From positions 1 to 30,388 of IMG/VR virus record IMGVR_UViG_3300031654_000214: a DNA stretch of 30,388 nucleotides; one strand, 5' to 3'. A model generated the notes under the pieces. The model saw only the letters and a list, made by a program, of their open reading frames with translations, did no database searches and was not told where the DNA came from. Of this stretch, positions 15,306 to 30,388 are shown piece after piece; the stretch's first letter is position 1, and every line of letters starts with the position of its first letter. The position numbers were made by a program, and so were the translations under genes. This DNA is from a virus.

Positions 15306-15335
15306 AGTTTACCCATCCGCGACGGAGCTGGTCAA
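15306..15335 (-). promoter_or_regulatory. Possible promoter for the portal operon
   Basis: TTGACC, 18 bases, TAAACT on the minus strand; 6 bases after the -10 box comes the ATG of the coiled-coil gene. The 15300-15440 spacer holds nothing else I can identify. Confidence 0.4.
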
Positions 15336-15440
15336 GTGGAGTTCCGAAGTTCAGTGCCACTCGACCAGTCCGGCGCCAGCCCCCTACGGAAAGGGGATAA
15401 GCAAAACGGACCGCTCAGCCTTGCCGCTCGACCGGGCTGT

Positions 15441-16299: not shown

Positions 16300-16318
16300 G
16301 ACCACACCCTCCTTTCTG

Positions 16319-16360
16319 TTAAAGCACGGCGGGCCGAATTCCACTGATCGTCTTAATCAC
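16319..16360 (-). CDS. Possible 13-residue leader peptide
   Basis: GTG 16360 lies 5 bases after GGAGGAG and reads 13 codons (VIKTISGIRPAVL) before TAA, 19 bases upstream of the Gp37/Gp68 start. Its last codons coincide with the arm CGGCCCGCCGTGC found at the spacers E1-E4. It may be a leader peptide or chance. Confidence 0.25.
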   Translation of the reverse strand: MIKTISGIRPAVL

Positions 16361-16362
16361 AC

Positions 16363-16386
16363 TCTCCTCCCACCGCCTCAGCGGCA
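16363..16386 (-). repeat. Leader motif, copy 1 (CCGCTGAGGCGGTGGGAGG)
   Basis: GCCGCTGAGGCGGTGGGAGG forms a short CCGC/GCGG hairpin directly in front of a ribosome binding site. A near-identical copy with a compensating loop change lies at 19940-19963 before another small gene. It sits between the large terminase and the Gp37/Gp68 gene, followed by the E-type 3' arm at 16324-16335. Confidence 0.5.
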
Positions 16387-16419
16387 ATTTCGTGCGACGC
16401 TCACAACAACCGCCCTCTA

Positions 16420-18213: not shown

Positions 18214-18215
18214 TC

Positions 18216-18401
18216 CTATCTACGCCACAAGTACATATGCCACAAGTACAGCGGCCACAAGATGGCTGCCAGGGCAACGACCAACATCTGGGGGACCGGG
18301 CCGAAATGCCACCGCCGGGTCATCCCATACAGAAACACGACGACAACCCCGCCAACGTAGACGGAAACTATCCCCAACAAAATATACAGCAAGGTTACCA
18401 T
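18216..18401 (-). CDS. Small two-helix membrane protein
   Basis: The 61-residue protein is almost all membrane: TLLYILLGIVSVYVGGVVVV and QMLVVALAAILWPLYLW, with a basic loop (GMTRRW) between and a basic end. GGGAGG lies about 10 bases before the ATG. Its stop is 2 bases before the large terminase start. Size and topology would allow a holin, but this position is uncommon for one and no lysin is near. Confidence 0.65.
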   Translation of the reverse strand: MVTLLYILLGIVSVYVGGVVVVFLYGMTRRWHFGPVPQMLVVALAAILWPLYLWHMYLWRR

Positions 18402-18444
18402 AGCTCACTTTCCTCCCAACGATGCGGCTAGTTGCTGGATCGAC

Positions 18445-18732
18445 TCAGAACCTCTTCTTTTTCCGGGCCACCTGGCGATGGGCGGTACGCTGCAACACGA
18501 TGGGCCGCGGCCAGCCGTGGTGTGGGCTCGCCGTAGGCAGAGGTTGGAACTTGGGCGGGGCCTCGGGCAAGATCCTTTCGCCGCAGGCCAGCATGGCTTC
18601 CGCAGCGACCATCGCGGCCTCCCGATACTTTACGCGACTGGCACAGGTCGCCGAGCACGTCCCCGTCGAGGTGCCTTCCGGCAAATCCCGGCAGGACGAA
18701 CAATAAGTCTCGGGTTCTGGTGAAGCTATCAT
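18445..18732 (-). CDS. Small cysteine-rich protein
   Basis: The 95-residue protein starts MIASPEPETYCSSCRDL behind GAGGG, has a second Cys pair (CSATCAS) and ends basic (RQVARKKKRF). The CxxC and CxxxC pairs could bind zinc. The C-terminal half is proline-rich and probably disordered. It begins 10 bases after the small terminase stop. I recognise no family. Confidence 0.6.
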   Translation of the reverse strand: MIASPEPETYCSSCRDLPEGTSTGTCSATCASRVKYREAAMVAAEAMLACGERILPEAPPKFQPLPTASPHHGWPRPIVLQRTAHRQVARKKKRF

Positions 18733-18742
18733 GGCCGATCCC

Positions 18743-19411
18743 TCACAGGTCCTCGAATCCCTCACCGTTCCCGTCGCCTCCGTCGGGCCCAGGCAGCAAC
18801 GGTGTGGACGACGCCTCGATGACGTGCTCCTCGCCATCCTCGCCGATCTCCACGGCTGGCCCCCTCGGGGCCTGCAAGAGCAGTTGGAAGAGGTTGACCG
18901 GCTGGCCATCCTTGCCTGTAATCTCATGTTTCTGCGGGGCATCCAACGCATCGAGCCTGGCCAGGGCGTTCAGTTGCTTGTCCGCCTCGGCCAGGAACCG
19001 CGGGTCGCCCAGCAGCTTCTTGACCTCGATCTCCTCCTCAGTCCACTCGACTACGTTCGGCTCGTCGCCCTCCCCTGCCTTGGCAGGGCCCTGCCGCTTC
19101 CTCGCCCGCCTCCGCTCCTGCTCGACCTGCGACCGCCGCCACGCCGCGATCGCCTCCCGGTACAGAAACTCCCGCTTCGCCCGGTACGCCGCAGCCCTCG
19201 CGTCGTGGGCCTCGGCTGCCCGCTCCTTATACCGCTCGATCGCGTCCCGATACCTGGCGTGAGCGACGGCGACGGCCATCCCCAGGCGGAGCCCGATCTC
19301 GCGGAAGGTCAGGCCCTCAAGGTGCAGCTCGGCGACCTGGGCGATGTCCTTCTCCCGTTTAATCAGGGCCGTCGACCGCTTGTGCTGCCACTGGTTCGGC
19401 TTCTTCGGCAT
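18743..19411 (-). CDS. terS: Terminase small subunit-like DNA-binding protein
   Basis: The 222-residue protein starts MPKKPNQWQHKRS, then LHLEGLTFREIGLRLGMAVA as a helix-turn-helix, followed by long charged helices (residues about 60-130, rich in Arg, Ala and Glu) that would form an oligomer core. The C-terminus is acidic and flexible (GPDGGDGNGEGFEDL), as in small terminases that contact the large subunit. Two genes separate it from the large terminase. HTH, helical core and position support the call; sequence alone does not prove it, and another HTH regulator is possible. Confidence 0.7.
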   Translation of the reverse strand: MPKKPNQWQHKRSTALIKREKDIAQVAELHLEGLTFREIGLRLGMAVAVAHARYRDAIERYKERAAEAHDARAAAYRAKREFLYREAIAAWRRSQVEQERRRARKRQGPAKAGEGDEPNVVEWTEEEIEVKKLLGDPRFLAEADKQLNALARLDALDAPQKHEITGKDGQPVNLFQLLLQAPRGPAVEIGEDGEEHVIEASSTPLLPGPDGGDGNGEGFEDL

Positions 19412-19449
19412 GTTCGTCTAGCCTACGATAGTTCAAGGCCGCCCCTCAT

Positions 19450-19580
19450 TCAGGGGCACTGGGCCTCGTCTATCAACCGCCTGATCAACCGCCCCGCCCG
19501 CCGCCTGTTCTCCGGGTCATTCTACCACCTATTCAGGCGACCGTCTCGGTCAGGAACTCGCCCTGTGTTCGCTTCGCCAT
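19450..19580 (-). pseudogene. Possible broken small gene
   Basis: ATG 19580 reads MAKRTQGEFLTETVA and stops. In another frame, after a shift and one TAG, the DNA reads GRLNRW, stop, NDPENRRRAGRLIRRLIDEA. Joined, these would make one natural-looking helical protein of about 45 residues. One frameshift and one nonsense change would have to be assumed, so it may be coincidence. Nothing else is visible between 19412 and 19583. Confidence 0.25.
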
Positions 19581-19583
19581 GTG

Positions 19584-19763
19584 TCAGCCTCCGTCCCCAG
19601 TATAGCCCAACAAACACGACACCGCAAGGCCCCAGCCTTCCGTCGGACCTTCCCCCGCCTCGGTGGCGTCGCTCTTCGGCTCCAGCAAGGCACCGACAAT
19701 TGTCCCCCCCACATCCTCGACCGCGGCCTTCAGAAACGGCCGGATCAACTGGGACGAAGTCAT
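19584..19763 (-). CDS. Small unknown protein (59 residues)
   Basis: ATG 19763 gives MTSSQLIRPFLKAAVEDVGG, continuing through GWGLAVSCLLGYTGDGG. The composition is protein-like, better than the overlapping frame from GTG 19779. It follows the next small gene by 12 bases. No signal, no family. Confidence 0.5.
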   Translation of the reverse strand: MTSSQLIRPFLKAAVEDVGGTIVGALLEPKSDATEAGEGPTEGWGLAVSCLLGYTGDGG

Positions 19764-19775
19764 GACAGGGTTTTT

Positions 19776-19931
19776 TCACATGAGGCTCCCGATCGACAGC
19801 AGGCAGGCGTCTACCGAGCGGGGCTCCGCGTGGAGCCCATCTACCAGGGCCCAGAGCTGGTCGTGGTCGGGCCTGCCCAGCCCGTACTGTTCTATCTTCT
19901 CGATCGTAAATTTTAGGTCGGCCTCGGTCAT
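19776..19931 (-). CDS. Small unknown protein (51 residues)
   Basis: ATG 19931 stands 9 bases after GGAGGGG, which belongs to leader motif copy 2. The product (MTEADLKFTIEKIEQYGLGR to LLSIGSLM) looks like a small helical phage protein. No family recognised. Confidence 0.55.
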   Translation of the reverse strand: MTEADLKFTIEKIEQYGLGRPDHDQLWALVDGLHAEPRSVDACLLSIGSLM

Positions 19932-19939
19932 GTCGTCAG

Positions 19940-19963
19940 TCCCCTCCCACCGCCTCGGCGGTC
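19940..19963 (-). repeat. Leader motif, copy 2 (CCGCCGAGGCGGTGGGAGG)
   Basis: The second copy of the hairpin plus ribosome-binding motif described at 16363-16386, flanked by ACTGAC on both sides. It supplies the ribosome binding site of the 51-residue gene. Confidence 0.5.
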
Positions 19964-19982
19964 AGTTTGGTTGGTTGCGATC

Positions 19983-20906
19983 TTAGCGTCCAGCCACGCC
20001 GACCATCGCCGGCGGGTCAAAGTCCTCCAGCTCCACGTCCACCGCGTCGGGGTTCGCCGCCGTCCAAGCCCGCACGTCCTTCGTGCCCAGCGGCGTCAGC
20101 CACCACGTTACGCTCCGCCCCAGCCGCCGCGAGAGCATCTCGGCGACCACCCTCGCCCCGTACAGCCCCGGCCAGCACGCCTGGCATCCGTGGCACCCGG
20201 GCAGGCAGCCCGGCCGCTCGCCCGCCGGTTTGCGGTCCGCCTCGCCCATCACCACGATTTCCCGCCCGCGGTACGGCCGCAGCAGCTCGGGCAACCATGG
20301 GGCCGCCACGTTGCTCGGACGCCCGACCGTCGACTTCCCCAATTGTACCATGGTTGCCGCGTCGCTAGCCCCCTCCGGCAGGTAGATCGTGTCCGACAAT
20401 TTGTGCCAGCCGTGGCTGTAAAAAAGGCCGGGGGTGCCGCCGCGCATCGTCAACTTCTTCCCGTCCCTCCCCCGCAACGCTATGCCGACCACTGTCCCGC
20501 TCGCGTCCCTCATCGGCCACGTCGAGTACTCGCAGCCGAAGTCCCGCCTCCACTGCTGCCACGTCCAGCCGACCCGGAACCGCTCCAGAACCTCGACCGA
20601 CAGGGCCAGTGTCTCGGCCATGAACTCCCGCATCCCCGGAGCCTCGTGGTGGCAGTAGCACCGCTTGGCCTCCGCCGTCCAGTCGCGGATCACCTTCGGC
20701 TCCTCCCGCCTCGGCGGAGGTAGGTCGATCTTGTCGCCGTCGAGCTTGTGCAGCCAGCCGCCGGCCGGGCCAGGCCAGGGGTGGTCGCTCTCCAGCCTCA
20801 TGCAGTGGGCCATCATCCCGTCCGCCGACACGCGGCACCAGTCTGGCTTCCCACACACCCTGCAAGGATGTGCCCGCGTCACTCGTACCCATTGTGATTT
20901 GCCCAC
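19983..20906 (-). CDS. Zinc-finger/TOPRIM primase-like protein
   Basis: The start is GTG 20906, 9 bases after AAAAGG. The 307-residue protein opens with a zinc-binding region: HPCRVCGKPDWCRV, then ADGMMAHCMR, as in the N-terminus of DnaG/gp4-type primases and related phage proteins. The middle has SVEVLERFRVGW and IYLPEGASDAATM, resembling the primase TOPRIM catalytic motif (EGxxD), and REIVVMGEADRK as a second acidic TOPRIM-like motif. Then comes a second Cys cluster, CLPGCHGCQACW. No helicase is fused. It probably makes RNA primers for phage replication. The four E spacers end just upstream, and E4 forms its leader. Confidence 0.7.
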   Translation of the reverse strand: MGKSQWVRVTRAHPCRVCGKPDWCRVSADGMMAHCMRLESDHPWPGPAGGWLHKLDGDKIDLPPPRREEPKVIRDWTAEAKRCYCHHEAPGMREFMAETLALSVEVLERFRVGWTWQQWRRDFGCEYSTWPMRDASGTVVGIALRGRDGKKLTMRGGTPGLFYSHGWHKLSDTIYLPEGASDAATMVQLGKSTVGRPSNVAAPWLPELLRPYRGREIVVMGEADRKPAGERPGCLPGCHGCQACWPGLYGARVVAEMLSRRLGRSVTWWLTPLGTKDVRAWTAANPDAVDVELEDFDPPAMVGVAGR

Positions 20907-20932
20907 GCGGCGTTACCTTTTCGTAATGAAAA

Positions 20933-21079
20933 GCACGGCGGGCCGGGTTTCCCATTTCTCCCTACACCGGCAACCGGGGGCTCCGTGATGTACTCGCTTC
21001 CTCGCCGTGCCAGCCCTATATCCTGCTGACAACTCAGCTCCACGTCCCTTGTAGGGGCATTTGCACGCCGCCGCCGTGC
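20933..21079 (-). ncRNA. Structured spacer E4 (leader of the primase gene)
   Basis: The minus strand starts GCACGGCGGCGGCGTGC, sharing its first base with the preceding stop codon, and ends GGCCCGCCGTGC followed by TTTTC. The ends can pair over about 9 bp; the 5' end can instead fold on itself (GCACG/CGTGC). The inner 110 bases have further hairpins (for example CCCCTACAAGGG). See E1-E3. Confidence 0.55.
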
Positions 21080-21300
21080 TAGTTTCGCTTTTGGTCCAAT
21101 TCCAACTCGGTTTGGTTGGCGACAATTGCAGTGCCCTCGAACTTGTAGCACCCAACCACGATCCGCTCGTCCTTTTCGGCAATCTCCTTTATCTCCTCTT
21201 CGGCCAAAAGAACGGGCTTGCCATCCCAAGAGTCATCGCTCCATTTGGCCCATATAACTTCGGGAAACCTCTGCTTGCAGGACTTCTGTTTCTTTGCCAC
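21079..21300 (-). CDS. Small unknown protein (73 residues)
   Basis: GTG 21300 follows AAAAGGAG by 7 bases. The product (MAKKQKSCKQRFPEVIWAKW to LELDQKRN) has an acidic middle (LLAEEEIKEIAEKDE) and beta-like end (IVVGCYKFEGTAIVA). No family is recognised. It sits between spacers E3 and E4. Confidence 0.65.
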   Translation of the reverse strand: MAKKQKSCKQRFPEVIWAKWSDDSWDGKPVLLAEEEIKEIAEKDERIVVGCYKFEGTAIVANQTELELDQKRN

Positions 21301-21331
21301 GATCTTCTCCTTTTGGTAAGCGTTTCAAAAA

Positions 21332-21419
21332 ACACGGCTGGCCGGCCTCTGGATATTCGTGGCCGTTCGCAGCCGATACCTGCCACGCTTAGGCATCATG
21401 TTTCCACGCCGCCGCCATG
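21332..21419 (-). ncRNA. Structured spacer E3
   Basis: It begins CATGGCGGCGGCGTGG just after the zinc gene's stop and ends GCCAGCCGTG followed by six T. Relative to the other copies, C to T in the 5' arm keeps a G-U pair. CATCATG and CATGATG at the 5' end form an extra 7-bp stem. It precedes the 73-residue gene. Confidence 0.5.
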
Positions 21420-21426
21420 ATGTCTT

Positions 21427-21648
21427 TTAGGTTTCACCTGGTAGTTTGTTCGCAAGCGATCCTGCCGGTATTGCCGTTGCCGACAAGACGCCTTTTTGGT
21501 AGATCACACAGTTCGGACACAATTGAAGTCGCCCGTCACAAGGCACGGCCCAGCCCAAAGCCCGTGCCTGCACCCACTTCTCGACGATTACTTCGGCCTT
21601 GCAATTCTGGCAAGTCACCCTACAGGCTTGAATCGTTTCGATTCCCAT
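21427..21648 (-). CDS. Small zinc-ribbon protein (73 residues)
   Basis: ATG 21648 lies 6 bases after AAAGGAG. CQNCKAEVIVEKWV and LCPNC, 25 residues apart, form a four-Cys zinc ribbon. The C-terminus is hydrophobic and unmarked. It is one of several small zinc-ribbon proteins in the window. It lies between spacers E2 and E3. Confidence 0.65.
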   Translation of the reverse strand: MGIETIQACRVTCQNCKAEVIVEKWVQARALGWAVPCDGRLQLCPNCVIYQKGVLSATAIPAGSLANKLPGET

Positions 21649-21672
21649 GATTGCTCCTTTGTCGCTCAAAAA

Positions 21673-21779
21673 GCACGGCGGGCCGGGTAGTCCTGTTCGC
21701 TGCCATAGGGTCAGGTATGTCGCGGACAACCGGCGCTTGCAACGACATTCTCGCCAGCGCTGGCACGCCGCCGCCGTGC
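21673..21779 (-). ncRNA. Structured spacer E2
   Basis: It begins GCACGGCGGCGGCGTGCC right after the stop of the ExoX-C-like gene and ends GGCCCGCCGTGC followed by five T. Inside are a perfect palindrome GCCAGCGCTGGC and a 6-bp stem ATGTCG/CGACAT. It is followed by the ribosome binding site of the zinc-ribbon gene. Confidence 0.55.
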
Positions 21780-21974
21780 TCATTCTCCACATACAGTGTT
21801 CGCATACTCAACTAAATCCGGCCATTCATCGCACCAATCCTGCCGCAGAAACCAACGCCAGTACGAATCGGGTACGTCACCCAACCGCGACCTCTTATAC
21901 TTGCCGAATGGCATTGCGCTGTCGTCATGGAGTCTGCTGCGATTACTATATTGCTTAGCTAATTCGTCCATCAT
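21780..21974 (-). CDS. Small ExoX C-terminal-like domain protein
   Basis: The double ATG at 21974 follows GAGGAACAAA. The 64-residue product has MPFGKYKRSRLGDVPDSYWR and WFLRQDW, the FGKYKG...VPDxYLRW motif found at the C-terminus of ExoX-like exonucleases and as stand-alone phage proteins. A diverged copy of this motif is in the gene at 24996-25343. The domain may bind DNA ends or partners; its function is not established. It lies between spacers E1 and E2. Confidence 0.68.
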   Translation of the reverse strand: MMDELAKQYSNRSRLHDDSAMPFGKYKRSRLGDVPDSYWRWFLRQDWCDEWPDLVEYANTVCGE

Positions 21975-21989
21975 TTTGTTCCTCAAAAA

Positions 21990-22108
21990 GCACGGCGGGC
22001 CGGAATCGAACCGGCCAGGTCAGGGACCGCTTTTCAGGGTTACTACACCCTGTTGCTTTTCACCCATCAACGGTATCTGTGCGTGCCACCGTCCACGCCG
22101 CCGCCGTG
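21990..22108 (-). ncRNA. Structured spacer E1 with a tRNA T-arm-like hairpin
   Basis: It begins CACGGCGGCGGCGTGG right after a stop codon and ends GGCCCGCCGTGC plus five T; the ends pair over 8 bp. Inside is a T-arm-like hairpin, GCCGG-TTCGATT-CCGGC (22000-22016), next to the closing stem, and a hairpin CAGGGTGTAGTAACCCTG. The order of a 7-bp end stem, a D-arm-like GCGT/ACGC stem and a T-arm recalls a tRNA, but no proper anticodon arm exists. Confidence 0.55.
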
Positions 22109-22435
22109 TCATTGCTCTTCTGAAAATTCATGCCGGCCCCTCGCATCCCGCTGTTGTTGACACCATCGAATCAGCTTGTTGGCGTCGTCTTGGTATGCTT
22201 CTATTAGCGTCAACAGCCCTTCTTCCGCGGATTCGTGCATCGCCTCCATCGCTAACTCGATCTCCTTCCGCGTGGCCCGCATGTTCATTCCGTCTAGCTG
22301 GTCCCACAATCGCCTCCCCTCGACGGTCAGGGTCGGACTCGGATTCTTACGCGCAATTAGACCCAGGGTCGCCAACCTGTCCAGTACGCCCGTCAGCCAA
22401 AGCACCACGGCCAGCTCGCGACCAAGTCCCGTCAT
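22109..22435 (-). CDS. Small helical unknown protein (108 residues)
   Basis: I prefer ATG 22435, 9 bases after GAGGGA, over GTG 22480. The protein (MTGLGRELAVVLWLTGVLDR) has a winged-helix look at the start (LATLGLIA, PTLTVEGRRLWDQL) and then charged helices. It could be a small DNA-binding protein, but I recognise no family. E1 follows its stop directly. Confidence 0.6.
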   Translation of the reverse strand: MTGLGRELAVVLWLTGVLDRLATLGLIARKNPSPTLTVEGRRLWDQLDGMNMRATRKEIELAMEAMHESAEEGLLTLIEAYQDDANKLIRWCQQQRDARGRHEFSEEQ

Positions 22436-22499
22436 GTTTATGTTTCCCTCACCCCTCTTTCCCGCGTTTGCCACGGACACTTCATCGGCCTCTGCTTCG

Positions 22500-22937
22500 C
22501 TACAGAAGATCCCTCGACACGAAACACGTACGACCCGCCTTCGGACCGCTCAACACTCGCACTTCATTGCGGAAGAAGCCCAGCCCGATCTTACGGCACC
22601 GCGTCCCTGGTTGAAGCATGAAGGCTTCGCCCCGCAGGACCATCTGGTTCAGCCCCTCGTGGTCCCTGGCCGCGGCGAGTTGCGCCATGCGGCTGAAAGA
22701 GCTGGCACTTGTCGCGGCCGGAGTCTGCTGCGCGAGAGTCACCACGTCACTCAGCTCCACGTGCCGACTACGGTCAAGCCTACCCTCCCGCCATCGCTCA
22801 GCCTTCGTCGGCTGGCGGCCAACTTTACCCAGCGGTGCCAGGACCATCGCGGCCACCACGAACAACATGATCAGAAATCCGCCCACCATGATCCCTCGCA
22901 GCACCACGTCAGCAATAGATGTCTGTTTCTCAGCCAT
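22500..22937 (-). CDS. Membrane-anchored protein with SH3-like C-terminus
   Basis: ATG 22937 follows GGGAGAG by 6 bases. The 145-residue protein has one transmembrane segment (VLRGIMVGGFLIMLFVVAAM), a charged middle, and a beta-rich end (AFMLQPGTRCRKIGLGF, EVRVLSGPKAGRTCFV) like a small SH3 barrel. Topology with the C-terminus outside is likely. No family is assigned. Confidence 0.62.
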   Translation of the reverse strand: MAEKQTSIADVVLRGIMVGGFLIMLFVVAAMVLAPLGKVGRQPTKAERWREGRLDRSRHVELSDVVTLAQQTPAATSASSFSRMAQLAAARDHEGLNQMVLRGEAFMLQPGTRCRKIGLGFFRNEVRVLSGPKAGRTCFVSRDLL

Positions 22938-22983
22938 CGGTAGCTCTCCCTTCGGTGAAATCAAGTTGCGAAACGAACTACGC

Positions 22984-23226
22984 CTACTTATTGTCCCTTA
23001 CCCCGAATCCGTAGAACCTACCGCACAGCCGGCATTCCCGGCGAAACCAGTTACCATTCGGGTCGGGCTTCGCGTTCAGTTGCCTGCTCGCCACCGGCAC
23101 GTCCCGCCAGTCGCACGGCCCGGAGTGCGGCAACCTCTGGATCGGCGGCCGGTGCTTATCGATCCACTCCAGCTTCTCCTCCAGCCGGGCGTCCGGGCCG
23201 GGCTTCATGTCGTCAAGGTCAAGCAT
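22984..23226 (-). CDS. Small zinc-knuckle protein (80 residues)
   Basis: The product starts MLDLDDMKPGPDARLEEKLE and ends with a CxxC knuckle in RRECRLCGRFYGFG; an earlier Cys and His (HSGPCDW) might complete a zinc site. It overlaps the preceding gene's stop by 8 bases. The family is unknown. Confidence 0.6.
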   Translation of the reverse strand: MLDLDDMKPGPDARLEEKLEWIDKHRPPIQRLPHSGPCDWRDVPVASRQLNAKPDPNGNWFRRECRLCGRFYGFGVRDNK

Positions 23227-23416
23227 CGAACAACCTCATCTGCCTCTCCCGCTCGATCTCCGGCTGCCTCGCCCCCGCCAGCATTTCAGCGAAGTAGCCG
23301 CCGATTACCCGGGCGAGTGCGTCAAGGCTCATCCCCGTTTCGTTCACTAGACGATCGGTGACCAGGTCGGCACCCCGGATCGTCGATTCGTAGTTAAGGC
23401 GTTTCATTATGCCCAT
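23219..23416 (-). CDS. Small unknown helical protein (65 residues)
   Basis: The ATG at 23416 abuts the stop of the nuclease gene (TGAATG); ATG 23407 is an alternative. The product (ADLVTDRLVNETGMSLDALA, VIGGYFAEMLAGARQPE) is helical and acidic. The context suggests a partner of the nuclease/methyltransferase set. No family. Confidence 0.6.
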   Translation of the reverse strand: MGIMKRLNYESTIRGADLVTDRLVNETGMSLDALARVIGGYFAEMLAGARQPEIERERQMRLFDA

Positions 23417-24004
23417 TCAGCCTTGGCCATCTTCCTCAAACTCACTAAGCGGACCCAATTCCTTCAGGCTCGCGGCACTCCAGTATACCATGCCATACCG
23501 CCCCCACTTGGGCGATTCGTGGTTGACGCATTTTGCCAGCCTCTCTAGGGTATCGCCAAACAAACCGACTGGACAACTCTCGGGACAGCCGTGCGTCAAG
23601 TCGCGTGCATCCGGCTGCGAGCTGCGGTGAAGAAACAGAAGCCAAACGGGCCAGTCAATCCTGTTCTGAATCCGCAAGTATCCCTGATAATGATTCCGAT
23701 CAATCCCCGTCGTCCAGCAGGGCGGCTTGCTGATCCGGTGCCACGTAAAAACAGTCTTGTGCTTCGCCTCAATCCAGAGAACTTGCTTGTGTTTGTTTAT
23801 GACGAGCAAATCAGGCGCGATATATTCACCGTCCCTATCAAACAGCCGGGGGCCCTTGCCAGTGTCATATTCTATGTCATAGATCGGCAGCACCAGACTT
23901 CCGCGGCGCATCACCCACTTGGCTATCGCCGTCTCGGCCTGCTGGCCAAACGCCAGTTGCTTCTGAAATTCGGCGTTGCTCAGCCGTCGCGTTGGGCTGC
24001 TCAC
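23417..24004 (-). CDS. PD-(D/E)XK-type nuclease coupled to the methyltransferase
   Basis: The start GTG 24004 overlaps the methyltransferase stop (GTGA), giving 195 residues; longer starts would lie inside the methyltransferase. The core motif is APDLLVINKHKQVLWIEAKH: Asp, a spacer and E-A-K, the PD-(D/E)XK signature, preceded by a helix with conserved Glu (FGQQAETAIAKW). WPVWLLFLHR follows, as in related phage proteins. It may be a recombination or anti-host nuclease; the coupling to a methyltransferase also allows a small restriction-modification pair. Family fold is well supported; role is open. Confidence 0.7.
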   Translation of the reverse strand: MSSPTRRLSNAEFQKQLAFGQQAETAIAKWVMRRGSLVLPIYDIEYDTGKGPRLFDRDGEYIAPDLLVINKHKQVLWIEAKHKTVFTWHRISKPPCWTTGIDRNHYQGYLRIQNRIDWPVWLLFLHRSSQPDARDLTHGCPESCPVGLFGDTLERLAKCVNHESPKWGRYGMVYWSAASLKELGPLSEFEEDGQG

Positions 24005-24975
24005 TTCCTCACCATCACCGTACCGATTGCCGCAAACGACTTGGCGAATCTCGCGTCGCGTCGCCCGAAGTAGAAGAACGTCTGCCCGTTCGTCGGCTGG
24101 GCTATTTCTCCGGCGGGGCTGCTGAAGTTCACCCGACCCCTCGTAAAGCACACCCCGGCCGCCCGCCCAGCCGCCTGGTGCCACCAGCCGGTGTCCGTGT
24201 TGTTGTTCGTCAAAAGGACGGCCTGCTGCACGTCGCCCGCCTCGTACGACTCGCATAGCTTTTCGACAAACGCCTGCATTAGGGCGGCCTGAAAGGGTGG
24301 ATTCAAAAACACATTGCCCTTCCACTGCCGCGAGAGCCCGTCGTTTTTCTTGTCGAAGAATCGCCTTGCCTTCACGACCGCGTTGGCCTTCTTATTGGAC
24401 GCCGGATCCAGGTCGATGCCGCCCATCACCTCGCGGGCTAAGTCCACGTACCTCGCGGGCGTGAACCATTCGATCACCCCCTTGTTTTGATTGCTCTTGA
24501 TATTGCCATCCGAGCCCACGAAACGGATGAACGCGGCCGTACTGATCTCCGGTACATCGGGGCTATTCTTGTCCGCCTCTTCCGTTGCCTTATCGATTCT
24601 GTCGCGATAGCTCTCAAGCTCGCCGGCGTGCTCGGCTACCTTACGGTAGGTGGCGATGGTGTGAGACGAAAAGCCTGTACCGGGTACAGACTTTTTCTCG
24701 TCGGCCTTCTTCGGCCGCCCTCCCGTCGTCGGCATCAGCTCCCCCAGCTTGGCCTGAATTAGCAGCTTGCCGTACTGGATGGCGTTGATAACCTCCGTGT
24801 CCACCCGTACCCGTCGGGCGTAGTGGGCCATTGTCTCCGCCTTGGCCAGCATCTCCGCCGCAACCTCCGGGTCATCCAGCAACGCGAGGGCCTGAGTGAT
24901 CTTCTTGGGAAAACTCAGGGCCGTGTTGCGAAATGAGTCCGGCACCGCCAACAGCTTGCTCGGGCTTGTCTTCAT
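24001..24975 (-). CDS. Phage DNA N6-adenine methyltransferase
   Basis: The 324-residue protein has an N-terminal helical part (residues about 30-150, YARRVRVDTEVINAIQYGKL and similar) and a C-terminal methyltransferase domain with GVIEWFTPARYVDLAREVMG, GIDLDPASN (acidic AdoMet-site loop), VFLNPPF (the NPPY-type catalytic motif), and LLTNNNTDTGWW. This matches the phage Dam/PF05869 type. Its target sequence is not readable from the protein. GGAG lies 6 bases before the ATG, and an extended -10 TGGTATAAT lies about 20 bases upstream. It is coupled to the downstream nuclease. Confidence 0.82.
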   Translation of the reverse strand: MKTSPSKLLAVPDSFRNTALSFPKKITQALALLDDPEVAAEMLAKAETMAHYARRVRVDTEVINAIQYGKLLIQAKLGELMPTTGGRPKKADEKKSVPGTGFSSHTIATYRKVAEHAGELESYRDRIDKATEEADKNSPDVPEISTAAFIRFVGSDGNIKSNQNKGVIEWFTPARYVDLAREVMGGIDLDPASNKKANAVVKARRFFDKKNDGLSRQWKGNVFLNPPFQAALMQAFVEKLCESYEAGDVQQAVLLTNNNTDTGWWHQAAGRAAGVCFTRGRVNFSSPAGEIAQPTNGQTFFYFGRRDARFAKSFAAIGTVMVRK

Positions 24976-24994
24976 TTGCGTCTCCTATACTCCC

Positions 24995-25003
24995 ATTATA
25001 CCA
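24995..25003 (-). promoter_or_regulatory. Extended -10 promoter for the methyltransferase
   Basis: TGGTATAAT on the minus strand, overlapping the stop codon of the gene before it. No clear -35 box; extended -10 promoters often lack one. Confidence 0.5.
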
Positions 25004-25343
25004 CAGCCCTCCGTTTCAGTTCCTCGCGGGCCCTCTGCTGAAACTTCCAGAAGCCCTTCGTTTCCGGCACGATCCCGGCGGCCCATCTCAGGTAATCGTC
25101 CGGCGCGTCTCTGAGCTTAGCGCCCTCGTGCTTTTCGAACGGTACCTCCCATCCGCCCGAGCCCTCGACCGCAGCCAGCAGCTCTGGATACCGCTCGGCC
25201 GAATCCTTGACTTCGCCCAGTTCGCAGTCGACGATCCCCAGGAAGGCCATCATCCGGTCGCCTTCTGGTATCGTTGCAGCCTGTAATCGCTGCGGACCGC
25301 TGATTCGTTGCTCCTGCTGTTTTTTACGTTTCCGGTAGCCCAT
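24996..25343 (-). CDS. ExoX C-terminal-like domain protein
   Basis: The 115-residue protein starts MGYRKRKKQQEQR behind AGGTGAG. The last 50 residues (VPFEKHEGAKLRDAPDDYLR, WAAG) are a diverged form of the FGKYKG...PDDYLRW motif of the gene at 21780-21974. The N-terminal part is unrecognised. Two such proteins in one phage suggest a duplicated function around DNA-end processing, which is inferred. Confidence 0.62.
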   Translation of the reverse strand: MGYRKRKKQQEQRISGPQRLQAATIPEGDRMMAFLGIVDCELGEVKDSAERYPELLAAVEGSGGWEVPFEKHEGAKLRDAPDDYLRWAAGIVPETKGFWKFQQRAREELKRRAVV

Positions 25344-25347
25344 TAAC

Positions 25348-25656
25348 TCACCTGTCGTTTGGCGTTTCTCCGGTAATCACATCCGCCGGCGCCTTCCGCG
25401 TCACTCTGCGAGCGACGCGGCACGCGCCGCCGGACCCCGGGCAACCGGACTGGATTTTACGTCGCACCATCGCTAGCCTTTCGACGTGCCGCCCAGCCCT
25501 CCATTTTACTCCGTCTTCCGGCTGCGGCGACAAATTATCTCCGTACACGGTCACCTCCAGTGTGCCGGCCTGACCGCTTGTAACGTCGTCTCGACGGTTT
25601 CCGCAGCCTCTCGGCTTCCATGACATTGTAATGAGCTGATCTAACCCATCGGCCAT
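25348..25656 (-). CDS. Small unknown protein (102 residues)
   Basis: The frame reads plausibly in its middle and end (LEVTVYGDNLSPQPEDGVKW, ADVITGETPNDR) with a Cys-containing basic region between. The ribosome binding site is poor; internal starts at MSWKPRG and MVRRK are alternatives. It is the first gene left of the large gap. No family. Confidence 0.45.
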   Translation of the reverse strand: MADGLDQLITMSWKPRGCGNRRDDVTSGQAGTLEVTVYGDNLSPQPEDGVKWRAGRHVERLAMVRRKIQSGCPGSGGACRVARRVTRKAPADVITGETPNDR

Positions 25657-25926
25657 GACTCACACAACGGAAGGCTCAGTATTCCATGGCCTGGCGGCTC
25701 CGTCCGGGCCGCAATCGTCAATTGTCTCCGGCAAAGTTCGAGGGTTCTCCCCGCAGTTGCCGGCAAGCACCCCGGCCGGTCGCGAACCCGGATACGCTTG
25801 CGGGGCGGAAAAATAGTGGCGGCCAGCCGCGTCCGTCGCGGGCGGGTCTCGCGTTACCGCTTCTGCTGGCCGCCGAGAGGGCCGGCGGGGGAGCGCCCCC
25901 GCGTGCTGCGCTATCCCGGCCCGGGC

Positions 25927-25967
25927 GCAAAAAGAATGCGGGCCACCCCTATGGAGAGGCGGCCCGC
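25927..25967 (-). terminator. Intrinsic terminator closing the right-arm transcript
   Basis: GCGGGCCGCC pairs with GGTGGCCCGC (10 bp, one G-T) around a 10-base loop, followed on the minus strand by ATTCTTTTTG. It lies downstream of the gene at 26203. Confidence 0.75.
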
Positions 25968-26000
25968 GATCCGAAAGAGATTTTCTGTCCGACAGGGCCA

Positions 26001-26028
26001 TTGCTGCCGGGGGGATTTCTGCTATAAT
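26001..26028 (+). promoter_or_regulatory. Plus-strand promoter
   Basis: TTGCTG, 16 bases, TATAAT with an extended TG; TTCTGCTATAATGA matches the endonuclease promoter at 11883-11898 except one base. Confidence 0.7.
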
Positions 26029-26034
26029 GATTGG

Positions 26035-26143
26035 TAATAGAGGCATGTCGCAAGTTCACTTTGCGTGGTGCCTGACCGGCAAGCGTGTCGTGCCGCTGCC
26101 GGTCACTCGGGGCCCGCCCTCCACGGTCGGGCCTCTCTTCTTG
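26035..26143 (+). ncRNA. Probable small RNA
   Basis: A transcript from the promoter at 26001-26028 would be about 110 bases. It contains a strong 12-bp hairpin (TGACCGGC(A)AGCG with CGCTGCCGGTCA, 26073-26105) and ends in a GC hairpin (GGCCCG/CGGGCC, 26111-26133) followed by TCTCTTCTT, a fair terminator. A 53-codon frame starts at ATG 26045 but has no ribosome binding site. The RNA is antisense to the 3' side of the right-arm transcript. Function unknown. Confidence 0.5.
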
Positions 26144-26202
26144 GGTCAAGGATCAACTGCCCCAACCATAGCACCTCCGCCCGGATCTGTAAACCCCAGT
26201 TT

Positions 26203-26475
26203 CTAGCCCGCCGCTCGAACCAACTCCCTGGCCCTTTCGGCCACCGCGGGCCAGTCGATCCGCAGCCCGCCCGTGCCCGAGTCGTAGTGGGCCACCTGCC
26301 TGCCCCGCCACCAGGCGAAGTACCGGCCGTCGGCCAACGTCACCACGTCGTGCGGGGCCCCGGCCGACCGGATGGCCGCGCTGGCCGGGCCCCACCACGG
26401 GAACGGGCCGAGGTTGGCCGAGGGTCGTCTGTCGGCCAGCTCAAAGGCCGTCTTCGGTGTCAGCGAAAGCTCCAT
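26203..26475 (-). CDS. Small unknown protein (90 residues)
   Basis: The protein (MELSLTPKTAFELADRRPSA, with PFPWWGPASAAIRS and VVTLADGRYFAWWRGRQVAH) has a beta-hairpin-like middle and a helical end. GGAGG lies about 6 bases before the ATG. It ends the right-arm run of genes. No family. Confidence 0.6.
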   Translation of the reverse strand: MELSLTPKTAFELADRRPSANLGPFPWWGPASAAIRSAGAPHDVVTLADGRYFAWWRGRQVAHYDSGTGGLRIDWPAVAERARELVRAAG

Positions 26476-26511
26476 CCTCGGCCTCCAGAGAGTAAGGCGG
26501 ATAAGCTCAAA

Positions 26512-26748
26512 TCAGTATCCCGCTTCCTGTAGACGGCGCATCAGGATCTTCCTCTTGCGCATTTTCTTCCGGGCGGACTTCATGCCCCGGCCGAACCCTT
26601 GAAGCCCTGGCCGGTACACAGTCGTCATGTAGTTTCCCGTGTACCGAGTGCGCTTCGCCGCACGTTTTTTCGCGCGGATGATTGCGCGCGTCGTGTAGCG
26701 GGCTGATCTTGTCAGTCCAATCCCCGGGGGGCGCAGTATCTTTCCCAT
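26512..26748 (-). CDS. Small highly basic protein (78 residues)
   Basis: About one residue in three is Arg or Lys (RAIIRAKKRAAKRTRYTGN, MKSARKKMRKRKILMRRLQE). The ribosome binding site GGGAG overlaps the stop of the preceding gene. It is likely to bind nucleic acid or the virion interior. No family. Confidence 0.58.
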   Translation of the reverse strand: MGKILRPPGIGLTRSARYTTRAIIRAKKRAAKRTRYTGNYMTTVYRPGLQGFGRGMKSARKKMRKRKILMRRLQEAGY

Positions 26749-26751
26749 CGT

Positions 26752-27468
26752 CTACTCCCGTTGAAGTTGGCGGACCACCGCCTGGATTCCCTTGCTTGCT
26801 GCCTCACGTATCCACGGGAGCATACGGGCAACCTCCGGCCACAACCGGCGCCGCTTGTGGACGTAGGGAGCGTAAGGCACATCAGTGCCCAGCACCAACT
26901 TACCGTGATATTCCTCGTACCGCTGCTCGGGTGAGGGCACGTAGCCGCCTGCCGATCGGCGGCCGGGCGCCAGGCTCTTCTTGAGCCGGCCCGAGATCCA
27001 GTTCATCGGCGGCCGGCGGCCCCGAAACTGTTCTTTGCGGGTCCGAGCACCCGCAGCCTTGACCGTGGCCCAGGCCATCCGGGCGGCTCGCTCGCCCGCC
27101 TCACGCTCGCCCACGCGAACGGCCAGCCGCGCGAAGTTTTGGGCGAACACCCGCCGCCACAGCTTGTCGTGCTGCTCGCTGAGTCCCCGCTTGCCACGCT
27201 TGGGTTCCCGCCGCGACTCGCGGGCTACGATCGTTGCCTCTTTGAGCGGTTCCCACCGGTCTCCGAACTCGTCGGAGCCCCACATCGACTTGGCGAAGAA
27301 GCTGCGGCTGATCTTATCGAAGATGTGATAGGCGAAGTGACTGCGCCACGTCGAGGCCAGGTGGCGGGCGTCGTACATCCGACCCGACAGCAGGGCAGGG
27401 AGCTTCCGCAGCTCGGCACGGATCTCGCCCCGGGTCTTACGGGTTCGGATTGTGATGGTTTCGGGCAT
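26752..27468 (-). CDS. Tail-completion/virion-morphogenesis-like protein
   Basis: The 238-residue protein has the motif order of Mu gpG/HK97 gp10-like tail completion proteins: FGDRWEPLKEATIVARESRR (W..L...T), WISGRLKKSL (TGRL..S), and LVLGTDVPYAPYVHKRRRLW, the conserved VGTxVPYAxxHxxG-type end. Such proteins cap the tail or join it to the head. The family is usually close to portal and capsid genes, whereas here it lies 8 kb upstream of the terminase among small unknown genes. The call rests on motif order; an unrelated protein is possible. Confidence 0.5.
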   Translation of the reverse strand: MPETITIRTRKTRGEIRAELRKLPALLSGRMYDARHLASTWRSHFAYHIFDKISRSFFAKSMWGSDEFGDRWEPLKEATIVARESRREPKRGKRGLSEQHDKLWRRVFAQNFARLAVRVGEREAGERAARMAWATVKAAGARTRKEQFRGRRPPMNWISGRLKKSLAPGRRSAGGYVPSPEQRYEEYHGKLVLGTDVPYAPYVHKRRRLWPEVARMLPWIREAASKGIQAVVRQLQRE

Positions 27469-27473
27469 GGATA

Positions 27474-27683
27474 CTACTTAAAACCTCCCAGTGGATGTTT
27501 CAACATCCAGGGCTGAATTCGACGAATGTGGATAGCTTCACAGCGCCCCCCGGCAGTTCTGCGGAGTTTCTTTAACACCCCGGCAACATGCTTACGGTAC
27601 GGCGATCCACGCCGATGCCTTCTTGCTTTCAGCAGACTCCTCGAATGTACATTCAACATTCCACGGGGGAGTCGGCCAGACAT
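27474..27683 (-). CDS. Small basic protein (69 residues)
   Basis: ATG 27683 follows AAGGGAG by 7 bases. The product is rich in Arg, Lys and His (LLKARRHRRGSPYRKHVAGV). The gene holds a perfect palindrome GAATGTACATTC (near 27645-27656). No family. Confidence 0.5.
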   Translation of the reverse strand: MSGRLPRGMLNVHSRSLLKARRHRRGSPYRKHVAGVLKKLRRTAGGRCEAIHIRRIQPWMLKHPLGGFK

Positions 27684-27684
27684 T

Positions 27685-27756
27685 TCATTCTCCCTTACAG
27701 ATACCCCTCATAACCCGGATAAGGATCCAGGCGTCCTGCCGCTTCTCGTCGGTCAG
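27685..27756 (-). CDS. Possible tiny gene or frameshifted tail of the upstream gene
   Basis: From CTG 27756 the frame reads LTDEKRQDAWILIRVMRGIC and stops just before the next ATG. It looks like real protein but has no standard start. It overlaps the stop of the gene at 27753, so a frameshifted extension is an alternative. Confidence 0.25.
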   Translation of the reverse strand: MTDEKRQDAWILIRVMRGICKGE

Positions 27757-28118
27757 CTCATCCTCGCGGGGAGGATCGACGTTCTAATCGGGTAGATTCT
27801 CAAGGTAACGGGCAGCCCCTTCCGGTTGACTTCGGCAATCATTTGCCGGACCGTGGCCGCTTCCAACGGGGTCAAAGCCAGCTCTTGAGTAATTGTCTCG
27901 ACCGGAACCATCGGCGGCAACGACGAGGACTGCGACTCTGTTGAGCACACGCCGGCATCGAACGCGGCGTCGATCAGTTCCCAGTAGAACTCGACTTCTC
28001 TGGGCATGTAGGAGGAGGCTGGGTCTCTGGCCAGATGCCCCGCAAAGTCATGGCTATTTTTGCTCTCCCGGTACGCCCGGACTAGCTTGGCGGCCGGTTC
28101 GATAAACTCAGACATCAT
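27753..28118 (-). CDS. Small unknown protein (121 residues)
   Basis: The ATG at 28118 follows GGAGAGCAAA; ATG 28130 abuts the stop before it. The product (MMSEFIEPAAKLVRAYRESK) has a helical first half (REVEFYWELIDAAFDAG) and a second half with LTPLEAATVRQMIAEVNRKG. No family. Confidence 0.6.
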   Translation of the reverse strand: MMSEFIEPAAKLVRAYRESKNSHDFAGHLARDPASSYMPREVEFYWELIDAAFDAGVCSTESQSSSLPPMVPVETITQELALTPLEAATVRQMIAEVNRKGLPVTLRIYPIRTSILPARMS

Positions 28119-28130
28119 TTTGCTCTCCAT

Positions 28131-28562
28131 TCATCGCTTTTCATTGTACCACGAAGGCGGTTTCGGCTCCGGTAGAAAATGGCCCAGCAGCACCGCAAGC
28201 CGAACCCAGTCGGTGTTCTCCTGGTCGGTCCGCTGCTTGGCCCACAGGGCGGCCGGGAGCATCACGCTCCAGCTCTCATCGTGGCAGCCGCACTCGAATG
28301 CTCCCCCGACTCGCAGCAGGTTCGCCTCCTCGTCGCTCCTGCCTGCCCCTCCGATGATGTGATGCACCTCCCCGTCTCTTGTCAACGGCAGCGACAGGCC
28401 GCATACCTGACACCTCAGCCAGTTGTAGCGGTAGGACTCAACGGTCCGCGGGCATCGCACGATCCTCGCCCGCGGGAAGTCCGCCGCACATTCGGGCAGC
28501 AGCGATCGGTAATCGCGGAACCGCACGCCGAGGCCGTCGATCAGGTCATCTCCCTCAGCCAC
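28131..28562 (-). CDS. HNH-like nuclease-fold protein
   Basis: The start GTG 28562 overlaps the preceding gene by 22 bases. The 143-residue protein has CQVCGLSL, then DGEVHHIIGGAGRSDEEANL and CGCHDES: a CxxC pair, the HH of the beta-beta-alpha-metal fold and a closing Cys-His, an HNH layout. It may cut or nick DNA, as many phage HNH proteins do near packaging or as homing enzymes. Residue roles are inferred from the motif order. Confidence 0.62.
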   Translation of the reverse strand: MAEGDDLIDGLGVRFRDYRSLLPECAADFPRARIVRCPRTVESYRYNWLRCQVCGLSLPLTRDGEVHHIIGGAGRSDEEANLLRVGGAFECGCHDESWSVMLPAALWAKQRTDQENTDWVRLAVLLGHFLPEPKPPSWYNEKR

Positions 28563-28999
28563 TTGATTTTGTCCTTGGATTCCGTGAACAGCCGTCCATA
28601 CTCAGCCAGCTCCCTCGCCGAGATCCCGACAATTTGACACATGCGCATGATCGTGAGGAGCGTCAGCCTGACCCCTTCTAAGTCGAGCGGCTTCCCTAGG
28701 TTGTCGCGCAAATTGAGGAGCATTACCGTCGGGGCCGCCGTCCCCAGCAGCCTGGCCCGGTCAGAATCCGCCAGCCGCCCGCTGAGTAACTCGCCGCAAT
28801 AGTAGCACTCGTTATCCCCCGCGTCCAGGAGGATGTAGTTGCCGCAGCTCGGGCAGCGGGCGAGCCGCGTGTCGTCCAGCGGTTTCTCCGCCGCGAGCCT
28901 ATCGATCTCCCCCAGCAATGCACGGAGGTGGTCCATGGCCGGAATGTATATCGAGCGGCCCTCGACTATCTCGCGGGCCTGTTGGATTAAGTCGTGCAT
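28541..28999 (-). CDS. Zinc-ribbon protein (152 residues)
   Basis: ATG 28999 follows GGAG by 9 bases. An N-terminal helix (HDLIQQAREIVEGRS) leads to a four-Cys ribbon, CPSCGNY and CYYCGEL, and a long helical C-terminal half (MLLNLRDNLGKPLDLEGVRL). The ribbon could bind DNA or a partner. No family. Confidence 0.62.
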   Translation of the reverse strand: MHDLIQQAREIVEGRSIYIPAMDHLRALLGEIDRLAAEKPLDDTRLARCPSCGNYILLDAGDNECYYCGELLSGRLADSDRARLLGTAAPTVMLLNLRDNLGKPLDLEGVRLTLLTIMRMCQIVGISARELAEYGRLFTESKDKIKWLREMT

Positions 29000-29256
29000 G
29001 ACGTGGGTCTCCAATTAGTTAACAGCCAGTCGTGTTCCGCCGCCAGGGCGTCCTGGCGGCGACGGTAGCTTCCCAGCATGGGCCCGCCGACGGGCGAGAG
29101 ATCCGCCCTCCAGCCCGTGCCATCCCACTCGACGTGCGAGGCGCGCTCGACGCGGCACTCGCCCAGCTCGGCCAGCTCAGCCAGGGCGTCGTCCCAGATG
29201 GCAGACACCCGGCCGGATGGGTCGATCATCAGCTCGATGGTCTCAGTGCTTGACAC
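28987..29256 (-). CDS. Small unknown protein (89 residues)
   Basis: Starts at GTG 29256, overlapping the DUF2997-like gene by 14 bases. It opens with TIELMIDPSGRVSAIWDD, recalling the strand-turn-strand start of its neighbour, and continues with a beta-rich middle (HVEWDGTGWRADLSPVGG) and a helical end (RRRQDALAAEHDWLL). The pair may be related small proteins. It overlaps the zinc-ribbon gene by 13 bases. Confidence 0.58.
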   Translation of the reverse strand: MSSTETIELMIDPSGRVSAIWDDALAELAELGECRVERASHVEWDGTGWRADLSPVGGPMLGSYRRRQDALAAEHDWLLTNWRPTSCTT

Positions 29257-29425
29257 GGGTCAGCTCCGACCGCTGATGGTACTCGGCCGTCAGCCGGTCC
29301 GATCGGACCTCGCCGAGGGCTTTTTCTAGATCCGCCGTAGCCTCGCGGCAGGCTGGCCCGGGGACGCCCTCTACGTGGATCTGTGGCTGGCCCGACGTGT
29401 CGATGGTGATCGTTACCTTCTGCAT
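29243..29425 (-). CDS. DUF2997-like small protein
   Basis: ATG 29425 follows GAGGAGGCG. The 60-residue product (MQKVTITIDTSGQPQIHVEG, then GPACREATADLEKALGEV) fits DUF2997: a beta hairpin, a G-x-x-C motif before a helix, and a closing EYH. In bacteria DUF2997 genes are found beside DUF1257 and a MoxR-type AAA+ ATPase. A DUF1257-like gene lies 0.7 kb away here; the ATPase would be outside the window, if present. Function not established. Confidence 0.62.
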   Translation of the reverse strand: MQKVTITIDTSGQPQIHVEGVPGPACREATADLEKALGEVRSDRLTAEYHQRSELTRVKH

Positions 29426-29709
29426 GATTCCGCCTCCTCTCGCCGTTTGCGGCACTCAGCCAGGTGGGCGTCGACCTTCGCCTCGCTGCCCCAGACGCCC
29501 ATCGGCAGGGCATCCAGCACTGCGGCCCAGCCAAACAGGGCGTGCTGGTTATTGTCGTCTGCGCGGCAGGCGGCCCGGTGCAGGTCGTTCTCTAGCACCG
29601 CCCGCAGGAAGTCGCCGGGCGGCCGACCCTCGAACAGGTAGGCCAACAAAGGTTCCCGCCCGTATTCCGGCACGCGGGCCAATGCTCTATCGAGACAAGC
29701 ACGGTCCAT
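29413..29709 (-). CDS. Small unknown protein (98 residues)
   Basis: ATG 29709 follows GGAG by 9 bases. The protein (MDRACLDRALARVPEYGREP, LLAYLFEGRPPGDFLRAVLE) is mostly helical and ends with a Lys/Arg/Glu-rich tail. It overlaps the start of the DUF2997-like gene. No family recognised. Confidence 0.6.
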   Translation of the reverse strand: MDRACLDRALARVPEYGREPLLAYLFEGRPPGDFLRAVLENDLHRAACRADDNNQHALFGWAAVLDALPMGVWGSEAKVDAHLAECRKRREEAESCRR

Positions 29710-29806
29710 GGTATCAGTCTCCTGTTAAGTGGTTTTTAGCGGCCGCTCAATCAATGTCCTTGCGAACTGGCACACCATAAGGGTAACGGCCTTCTTTCTG
29801 CTGCCA

Positions 29807-30082
29807 CTATGAAGCATAAGGCACATCTTTGAAAAGGGGGAACAGTGCTCTTGCCGCAGCCTCTGGTATCTGGCAGCCAGTGTCCCAAACCTCCTGCCAT
29901 TCTTGATCGTGATTCCTTCCTGGAACCGCATCACAATACGCCTTCCAGGTACCCTCGAGCCGGGTGCCGGCGACAGCTAGAACGCGACTGCCCAGAGCAT
30001 GCCACCTAATAGTCGGTCGCCATGCCACACAGGCGACCTGATCTCCCTGATCTGGGAAAGCAAACTCCCCGATGATTGTCAT
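29807..30082 (-). CDS. Small unknown protein (91 residues)
   Basis: ATG 30082 follows AAAGGAA by 8 bases and is preferred over ATG 30136. The product (MTIIGEFAFPDQGDQVACVA) is beta-rich with a tryptophan/charged middle (EGTWKAYCDAVPGRNHD). It lies between the DUF1257-like and DUF2997-like genes. No family. Confidence 0.58.
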   Translation of the reverse strand: MTIIGEFAFPDQGDQVACVAWRPTIRWHALGSRVLAVAGTRLEGTWKAYCDAVPGRNHDQEWQEVWDTGCQIPEAAARALFPLFKDVPYAS

Positions 30083-30104
30083 CGCTTCGGTTCCTTTCTG
30101 TTGC

Positions 30105-30388
30105 TTATCTTGTGTAGACGAGGCGAAGTTGCCCATCGTCCTGCTTCTTCTCGGCGACCCTCCAGCCGGCCCGCCGCATCACCTTCTTGCTCCGCTCGGC
30201 GGCGTACCGCTGCTTGAGCAGACCGAGGCCGGGGCCGCACTTCGCATGCAGGCCTTTGCCCTCGCTGAAGTTGTCGTAGACCAGTCGGTAGCGGCCCGGC
30301 TGGCCCGGCGCCTGGTAGACGCCGACCTCGTATTGGGCTCCGGGGACACGGATCACGCCCGCGTCGGACGTGCCGTATCTCTTGACCG
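30105..30388 (-). CDS. DUF1257/Ycf35-like protein, 5' end beyond the window
   Basis: The frame is open to the right edge. The visible 94 codons read VKRYGTSDAGVIRVPGAQYE, then GRYRLVYDNF, LGLLKQRYAAERSKKVMRRA and DDGQLRLVYTR. The sequence G-Q-Y-E-x-G-V followed by L-x-Q-R-Y-A, a helix with A-G-W and closing dG-x-x-RLV matches the C-terminal two thirds of DUF1257. Such proteins pair with DUF2997. The rest of the protein, perhaps 20-40 residues, lies outside. Confidence 0.62.
   Translation of the reverse strand, partial: VKRYGTSDAGVIRVPGAQYEVGVYQAPGQPGRYRLVYDNFSEGKGLHAKCGPGLGLLKQRYAAERSKKVMRRAGWRVAEKKQDDGQLRLVYTR

Follow-up and report, generated by a model that had tools for sequence, protein, structure and literature searches.

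A conserved three-hairpin small RNA facing an opposing promoter and leader terminator in uncultivated phages: a candidate for convergent antisense control

ColE1 RNA I is about 106 nt long and folds into three stem-loops. Plasmids already provide well-known examples of terminated leaders under convergent antisense control, and antisense RNAs are also known from phages. RNA I is described as binding the 5′ end of RNA II (PMC5415839), and for plasmid pIP501 it is reported that the 136-nt RNAIII makes transcription of the repR leader stop prematurely and that convergent transcription itself matters (PMC4981023). Among phages, examples are lambda OOP, aQ, P22 sar and the antisense RNAs of PAK_P3 (PMC4933390, PMC12197685); OOP is a phage-coded antisense RNA with its own promoter (PMC12197685, PMC5415839), and for the virulent phage PAK_P3 early antisense transcription is proposed to silence late genes early (PMC4933390).

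The locus described here lies in a 30,388-nt stretch of DNA (the window) taken from an IMG/VR virus record, the minus strand of which codes for a portal–MuF fusion, a major capsid protein, a large terminase subunit and a Dam methylase. The Dam methylase, a Pfam match, lies downstream of the RNA locus within 23417–25343, and a 29-base direct repeat (93%) occurs at 21658–21686 and 21975–22003, 317 bases apart. In the first-pass annotation a plus-strand small RNA with a promoter, two hairpins and a terminator had been proposed, and these elements were present as described. As a predicted antisense RNA it resembles ColE1 RNA I in its length of about 106 nt, its three stem-loops and its complementarity to the 5′ region of a longer RNA; it spans 26035–26141 (plus strand), with start and end estimated to ±3 nt. 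Its promoter (26001–26028, plus) consists of a −35 box TTGCTG at 26001–26006, a 16-nt spacer and a −10 box TATAAT at 26023–26028 preceded by the extended −10 element TGC. Downstream follow hairpin 1 (26041–26073), hairpin 2 (26074–26104) and a terminator with a U-rich tail (26110–26142, with its hairpin at 26110–26134), all on the plus strand.

Using a promoter score written for this purpose, with thresholds of 11 and 10, the small-RNA promoter scored 11, and four sites in the window reached at least 11, compared with a mean of 0.4 and a maximum of 2 in 40 shuffles. These four are a convergent pair to which the small-RNA promoter belongs, an endonuclease promoter at 11891, and a site at 11050; the last is a promoter-like sequence on the minus strand (TTGACA-18-TAGAAT) just ahead of a small minus-strand frame at 10851–11048. 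The 111-nt RNA folded at −56 kcal/mol (z −4.17), with one of 200 shuffles as good, and none of 674 tiles over both strands of the window (30 shuffles each) was as extreme by z-score; the RNA interval had been picked beforehand and the tiles had not. The lowest z-score among all tiles belonged to the minus-strand tile at 5500, which marks a possible terminator, a 37-base self-complementary stretch (89%) at 5543–5579 just after the capsid gene.

Other measures would fit a chance origin, in which GC-rich DNA between genes happens to form hairpins and to contain hexamers resembling promoters. Because the sequence is rich in GC, 14 of the 674 tiles were at least as stable as the small RNA in raw energy. 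A stock consensus scan listed neither the small-RNA promoter, the −35 box of which matches at 3 of 6 positions, nor the small-RNA terminator, and the stock promoter and terminator scans of 20000–30388 gave no excess over shuffles (2 vs 2.3; 7 vs 8.5). Against such a chance origin, which we consider extremely improbable, the comparison of lineages speaks strongly, through covariation, a covariance search and a convergent geometry conserved in three lineages.

The RNA recurs in two further IMG/VR phage lineages, with position and strand unchanged, so that three lineages were compared: the window, G002 and G004. G002 (21,492 bp) matches window 25725–26474 at 75%, and its contig end falls inside the terminase gene. 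G004 (92,947 bp) matches 25989–26143 at 72% and further segments of the block at 77–82%; it was counted as one lineage with G003 since the two are identical across the 10,258 bases compared, and it looks like a whole genome because the genes at both its ends adjoin each other in G001, a 38,490-bp sequence that is identical to window 1–21014 and stops short of the RNA locus. The genes flanking the block vary by lineage, and the RNA block remains together with its upstream neighbour, a 90-aa protein gene (26203–26475, minus) that stays beside the RNA locus with 74% identity in G002 and 68% in G004. At 9215–11858 of L021, G002 instead has, as judged by eye, a nuclease-like, a ParB/methylase-like and another nuclease-like protein in contrast to the Dam methylase of the window.

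Alignments of the 90-aa protein gave only G002, G003 and G004, an alignment of a TOPRIM-like protein gave G001, G002, G003 and G004 (the TOPRIM identity is our reading, and Pfam gave no match), and a single-sequence terminase scan gave G001 and G002; a terminase alignment gave 29 loci, 27 of them distant (23–32%), and the gene at 26752–27468, used as a query for relatives, found none. The 90-aa protein had no match in Pfam, in PHROG or among annotated phages, and 84,980 bacterial and archaeal genomes scanned for two neighbour proteins gave no match. Among annotated phages, window 14000–24000 had no near match, and the portal protein matched 126 phage records, each at less than 60% identity. 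A 181-base query of the small-RNA region met four annotated phage records (best E 0.2), all of them short matches judged to be chance: two Vibrio phage copies with a 32-base stretch across the promoter and RNA start, and two Mycobacterium phage copies at E 0.6. A 501-base query of the region found none among annotated phages and one plasmid record at E 0.04, likewise judged to be chance. The exact promoter 17-mer occurred in eight IMG/VR stretches, with the RNA in G002 only and the other seven contexts looking unrelated by eye.

Comparison of the lineages indicated that the small RNA is conserved as a structure. All three sequences fold into three like hairpins at −55 to −59 kcal/mol, the best folds of G002 and G004 adding a closing stem, and the consensus fold reached z −6.9 for the plus and −5.7 for the minus strand, with none of 300 shuffles as good on either. 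The first-pass annotation had named unconserved hairpins as a result that would speak against its proposal, and the hairpins proved to be conserved: in the unadjusted alignment, 6 of 32 pairs were changed on both sides, a count as high in only 1 of 500 shuffles, and 87.5% of cells were paired vs 27–46% with partners slid. Four of the 12 pairs of hairpin 1, which in G004 differs largely in sequence and is alike in architecture, and two of the 11 pairs of hairpin 2 were changed on both sides between lineages, and the seven lower pairs of the terminator hairpin form in all three lineages, the G004 copy terminating in GUCUUUUUGUC. Furthermore, the covariance search that had been suggested as a check was borne out: a model built from the window and G002 picked out the G004 copy, its only match across the 92,947 bases of that sequence (62.8 bits, E 2.8e-21), and the same search ignoring base pairs gave a best match of 31.9 bits covering part of the RNA. 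The 31 bits gained from structure flatter the model somewhat, since the 32-pair structure of this two-lineage model (R2) was written after G004 had been seen (e.g. pair 19–39), and more generally some choices of alignment and structure were made with knowledge of all three sequences. A three-lineage model run against the window and 37 loci returned the known copies only, with the next best at E 0.15. None of the 4227 families of Rfam 15 reached its gathering score in the window, and a permissive search of 25600–26250 gave only tfoR (17.7, needing 70) and Pxr (17.2, needing 80), on the opposite strand. Collectively, we regard the small RNA as very probably a selected RNA.

The promoter of the small RNA is conserved as well, with −35 and −10 boxes kept in the same place in G002 (TTGCTG/TATAAT, score 11) and in G004 (TTGCTG/TATACT with TG kept, score 10). 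It had also been proposed that a motif common to this promoter and the endonuclease promoter points to one regulator or polymerase for both. The motif does recur, as TTCTGYTATAATGA is found twice in the window at two mismatches or fewer, with 0.04 occurrences expected; the common part, however, is mainly the sigma-70 extended −10 TGnTATAAT, and the −35 boxes (TTGCTG, TTGCTT) and spacers (16 and 17 nt) are ordinary. Because the shared motif is mostly ordinary, a special common regulator is unsupported and also unnecessary. TTC and GA, the further letters that the two promoters have in common, recur where the small RNA is preceded by its promoter in G002 and G004 (TTCTGCTATAATGA; TTCTGGTATACTGA); the endonuclease side of the comparison covers the window only, as the G004 portal has no endonuclease-bearing intein and G002 ends inside the terminase gene.

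Around the endonuclease promoter, the portal–MuF gene (11834–14986, minus) carries an intein, with a Pfam Intein_splicing match below cut-off, and the G004 portal aligns without the insert. Inside the intein-coding stretch, and antisense to it, runs a 264-aa gene (11927–12721, plus) that has its own promoter and the ribosome site GGAGGT; GC by codon position is coding-like in both frames. No credible PDB match was found for the 264-aa protein, and the longer ORF that holds it (11717–12721) had no Pfam or PHROG match. This antisense gene inside an intein merits separate study.

Structure-adjusted counting, for which one gap was placed by hand and one G002 base was dropped, showed 88 of 96 cells pairing, with seven G–U and no A–C cells, so that the plus-strand RNA is the favoured fold. 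This strand preference, together with the strong sequence conservation of the hairpin 2 loop and the 3′ half of the RNA, would suit a free-standing small RNA that acts in trans on targets elsewhere (host or phage mRNA, or a protein) and overlaps a minus-strand RNA incidentally; two intergenic RNAs of about 100 nt are abundant in the virulent phage PAK_P3, and its authors proposed that they act in trans (PMC4933390). We hold such an RNA to be a possible but rather unlikely alternative, as it would leave unexplained a conserved opposing promoter, a terminator and the spacing between the two promoters.

The opposing promoter and its terminator had been missed in the first-pass annotation, and as read from the DNA they would turn a lone small RNA into a convergent antisense pair. 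The promoter (26165–26193, minus; TTTACA-17-TATGGT with extended −10 TGC) was listed by two different scans and has a predicted start at about 26158; it reads TTTACA-17-TATAGT in G002 and TTTACG-17-TATAAT, without TG and scoring 10, in G004. The distance between the −10 boxes of the two convergent promoters is 143, 143 and 140 bases in the three lineages. In G002 (21.5 kb) the convergent pair makes up the only two sites scoring at least 11 (shuffle mean 0.15, maximum 2), and in G004 (93 kb) it is among 16 sites scoring at least 10, each of the pair at 10. The predicted leader RNA, about 230 nt long, runs from 26158 to 25928 on the minus strand, and its nucleotides 18–125 are the perfect complement of the small RNA; the same was computed in all three lineages, with starts set by rule 7 nt past each −10 box and the small RNA fixed at 108 nt. 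Promoter-like sites on both strands and full complementarity, by which a cis-encoded antisense RNA is recognised, are present in all three lineages. The leader would end at an intrinsic terminator (25928–25967, minus), also listed by the stock scan, in which a 13-pair stem at 25967–25938 is followed by ATTCTTTTTG; all three lineages retain it (consensus z −5.4 on the minus strand and −4.7 on the other), and it finishes in CTCTTTTTTTAC in G004.

The stretch between the 90-aa gene and the first ORF downstream of the leader, a 102-aa frame (25348–25656, minus), appears by reading to be non-coding (25657–26202). Compared with G002, codon periodicity is absent in 26160–25938, where mismatches by codon position are 10/9/8 and single-base indels are present, in contrast to a neighbouring gene with 14/14/27. 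A protein-coding reading of 26046–25660 on the minus strand was rejected, as codon periodicity is absent and indels break the frame. Beyond the terminator lies a second conserved structured element (25818–25874, listed on the minus strand; GGCGGYYRGC..GCYRGCCGCC), a three-way junction in the model, which folds alike in all three lineages with consensus z −4.8 on the minus and −5.2 on the plus strand and so with no clear strand preference. The segment at 25723–25811 is also non-coding and conserved in sequence; it holds TTGCCGG repeats, and its consensus fold was not significant. A 19-mer of the distal element occurred in five stretches, two of them unrelated.

The position of the pair also bears on two further explanations. 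Transcription continuing past the stop codon of the 90-aa gene at 26203 would cross the full small-RNA complement before reaching the terminator at 25967, so the small RNA might act on the untranslated 3′ region of the operon upstream, exposing read-through mRNA of the 90-aa gene to RNase III in the manner of lambda OOP on cII; OOP acts near the cII 3′ end (PMC5415839). The small RNA resembles OOP as a phage-coded antisense RNA with its own, here predicted, promoter, but OOP acts at the end of the cII coding sequence whereas the small RNA is wholly non-coding, ends at about 26141, some 60 nt short of the 90-aa gene, and faces a dedicated promoter. As that conserved promoter stands between the small RNA and the 90-aa gene, the locus has its own partner RNA, and we consider antisense action on the upstream operon improbable. 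Alternatively, a three-hairpin antisense RNA of about 106 nt near the 5′ end of another RNA, with structured sequence beyond, might belong to a ColE1-like primer system in which the minus-strand RNA is the primer precursor and the plus-strand RNA its inhibitor. Unlike ColE1 RNA II, however, the leader is interrupted by a terminator at about 230 nt, and the GC skew of G004 does not change sign across the locus, giving no hint of an origin of replication there; a primer system seems to us very unlikely. The PAK_P3 antisense RNAs share with the small RNA the setting of antisense transcription in a phage, predicted in the present case, but 19 of the 20 lie within genes, whereas the small RNA is intergenic, structured and conserved with a partner promoter.

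The arrangement agrees best with the convergent plasmid systems, and we lean, by a modest degree, towards convergent cis-antisense control of the leader by the small RNA. As in pIP501 RNAIII/repR, and also pT181, the promoters converge, the predicted antisense RNA is of similar size (136 nt in pIP501, PMC4981023), and a leader terminator lies downstream of the antisense target, here in all three lineages. Unlike pIP501, the first downstream frame has no Pfam match, so that no replication protein is recognised and the leader is not recognisably that of a replication initiator gene, and no CopR-like repressor is shown here; 27 residues of this 102-aa frame match G004 at 93%, and G002 has no match to it. 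Refolding of the pIP501 attenuator type appeared in silico in one of the three lineages. With the small-RNA region unmasked and masked, the probability of the terminator stem was 0.76 and 0.76 in the window, 0.91 and 0.91 in G002, and 0.08 and 0.94 in G004, computed on the terminator stem alone, and a version counting more pairs gave the same picture. The model results are therefore mixed, with attenuator-like refolding predicted for G004 only; an attenuator with strong refolding is unsupported in the window and G002, where the stem probability is flat.

Under convergent antisense control, two overlapping non-coding RNAs would be made from convergent sigma-70-type promoters. The minus-strand promoter would produce a leader RNA that ends at the intrinsic terminator after about 230 nt, before the long minus-strand gene block, and the plus-strand promoter a stable three-hairpin RNA of about 106 nt. 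The small RNA would act in cis, pairing with the nascent leader through exposed loops, and this pairing would decide between termination of the leader and read-through into the downstream genes, which would be kept low when the small RNA is abundant. The conservation, covariation and strand preference of the small RNA, the convergent geometry and, by sequence, both terminators are read from the three lineages; from them we infer transcription, pairing in the cell, the effect on read-through and the genes affected. Polymerase collision at the convergent promoters without RNA pairing, or cleavage of the duplex, could also fit this anatomy. Furthermore, four other minus-strand promoter-like sites scoring at least 10 are found in the downstream block (24995, 23530, 19519 and 11050), so that the block need not depend on the leader.

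A more specific version, to which we give little credence, would have a plasmid copy-control circuit serve as a phage timer: the antisense RNA would rise with genome number and set read-through of the leader terminator into the 25-kb packaging and structural block. If this were true, late expression would depend on replication, with no late sigma factor or Q-like protein setting it, and both RNAs would come from host-type promoters.

What stands out against the known systems is that the small RNA is conserved and covaries, and that the promoter opposing it and the terminator of the leader are conserved too, all in phages without a PF00589 or PF00239 match; these integrase families were searched in G000, G001, G002 and G004, of which only G004 looks complete, and neither was found. 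At the least, the locus provides a structured RNA of uncultivated phages outside every Rfam family, and its three natural variants make the proposed control directly testable in a reporter plasmid. If control works as proposed, the small RNA and its leader would form a protein-free gate for a phage gene block.
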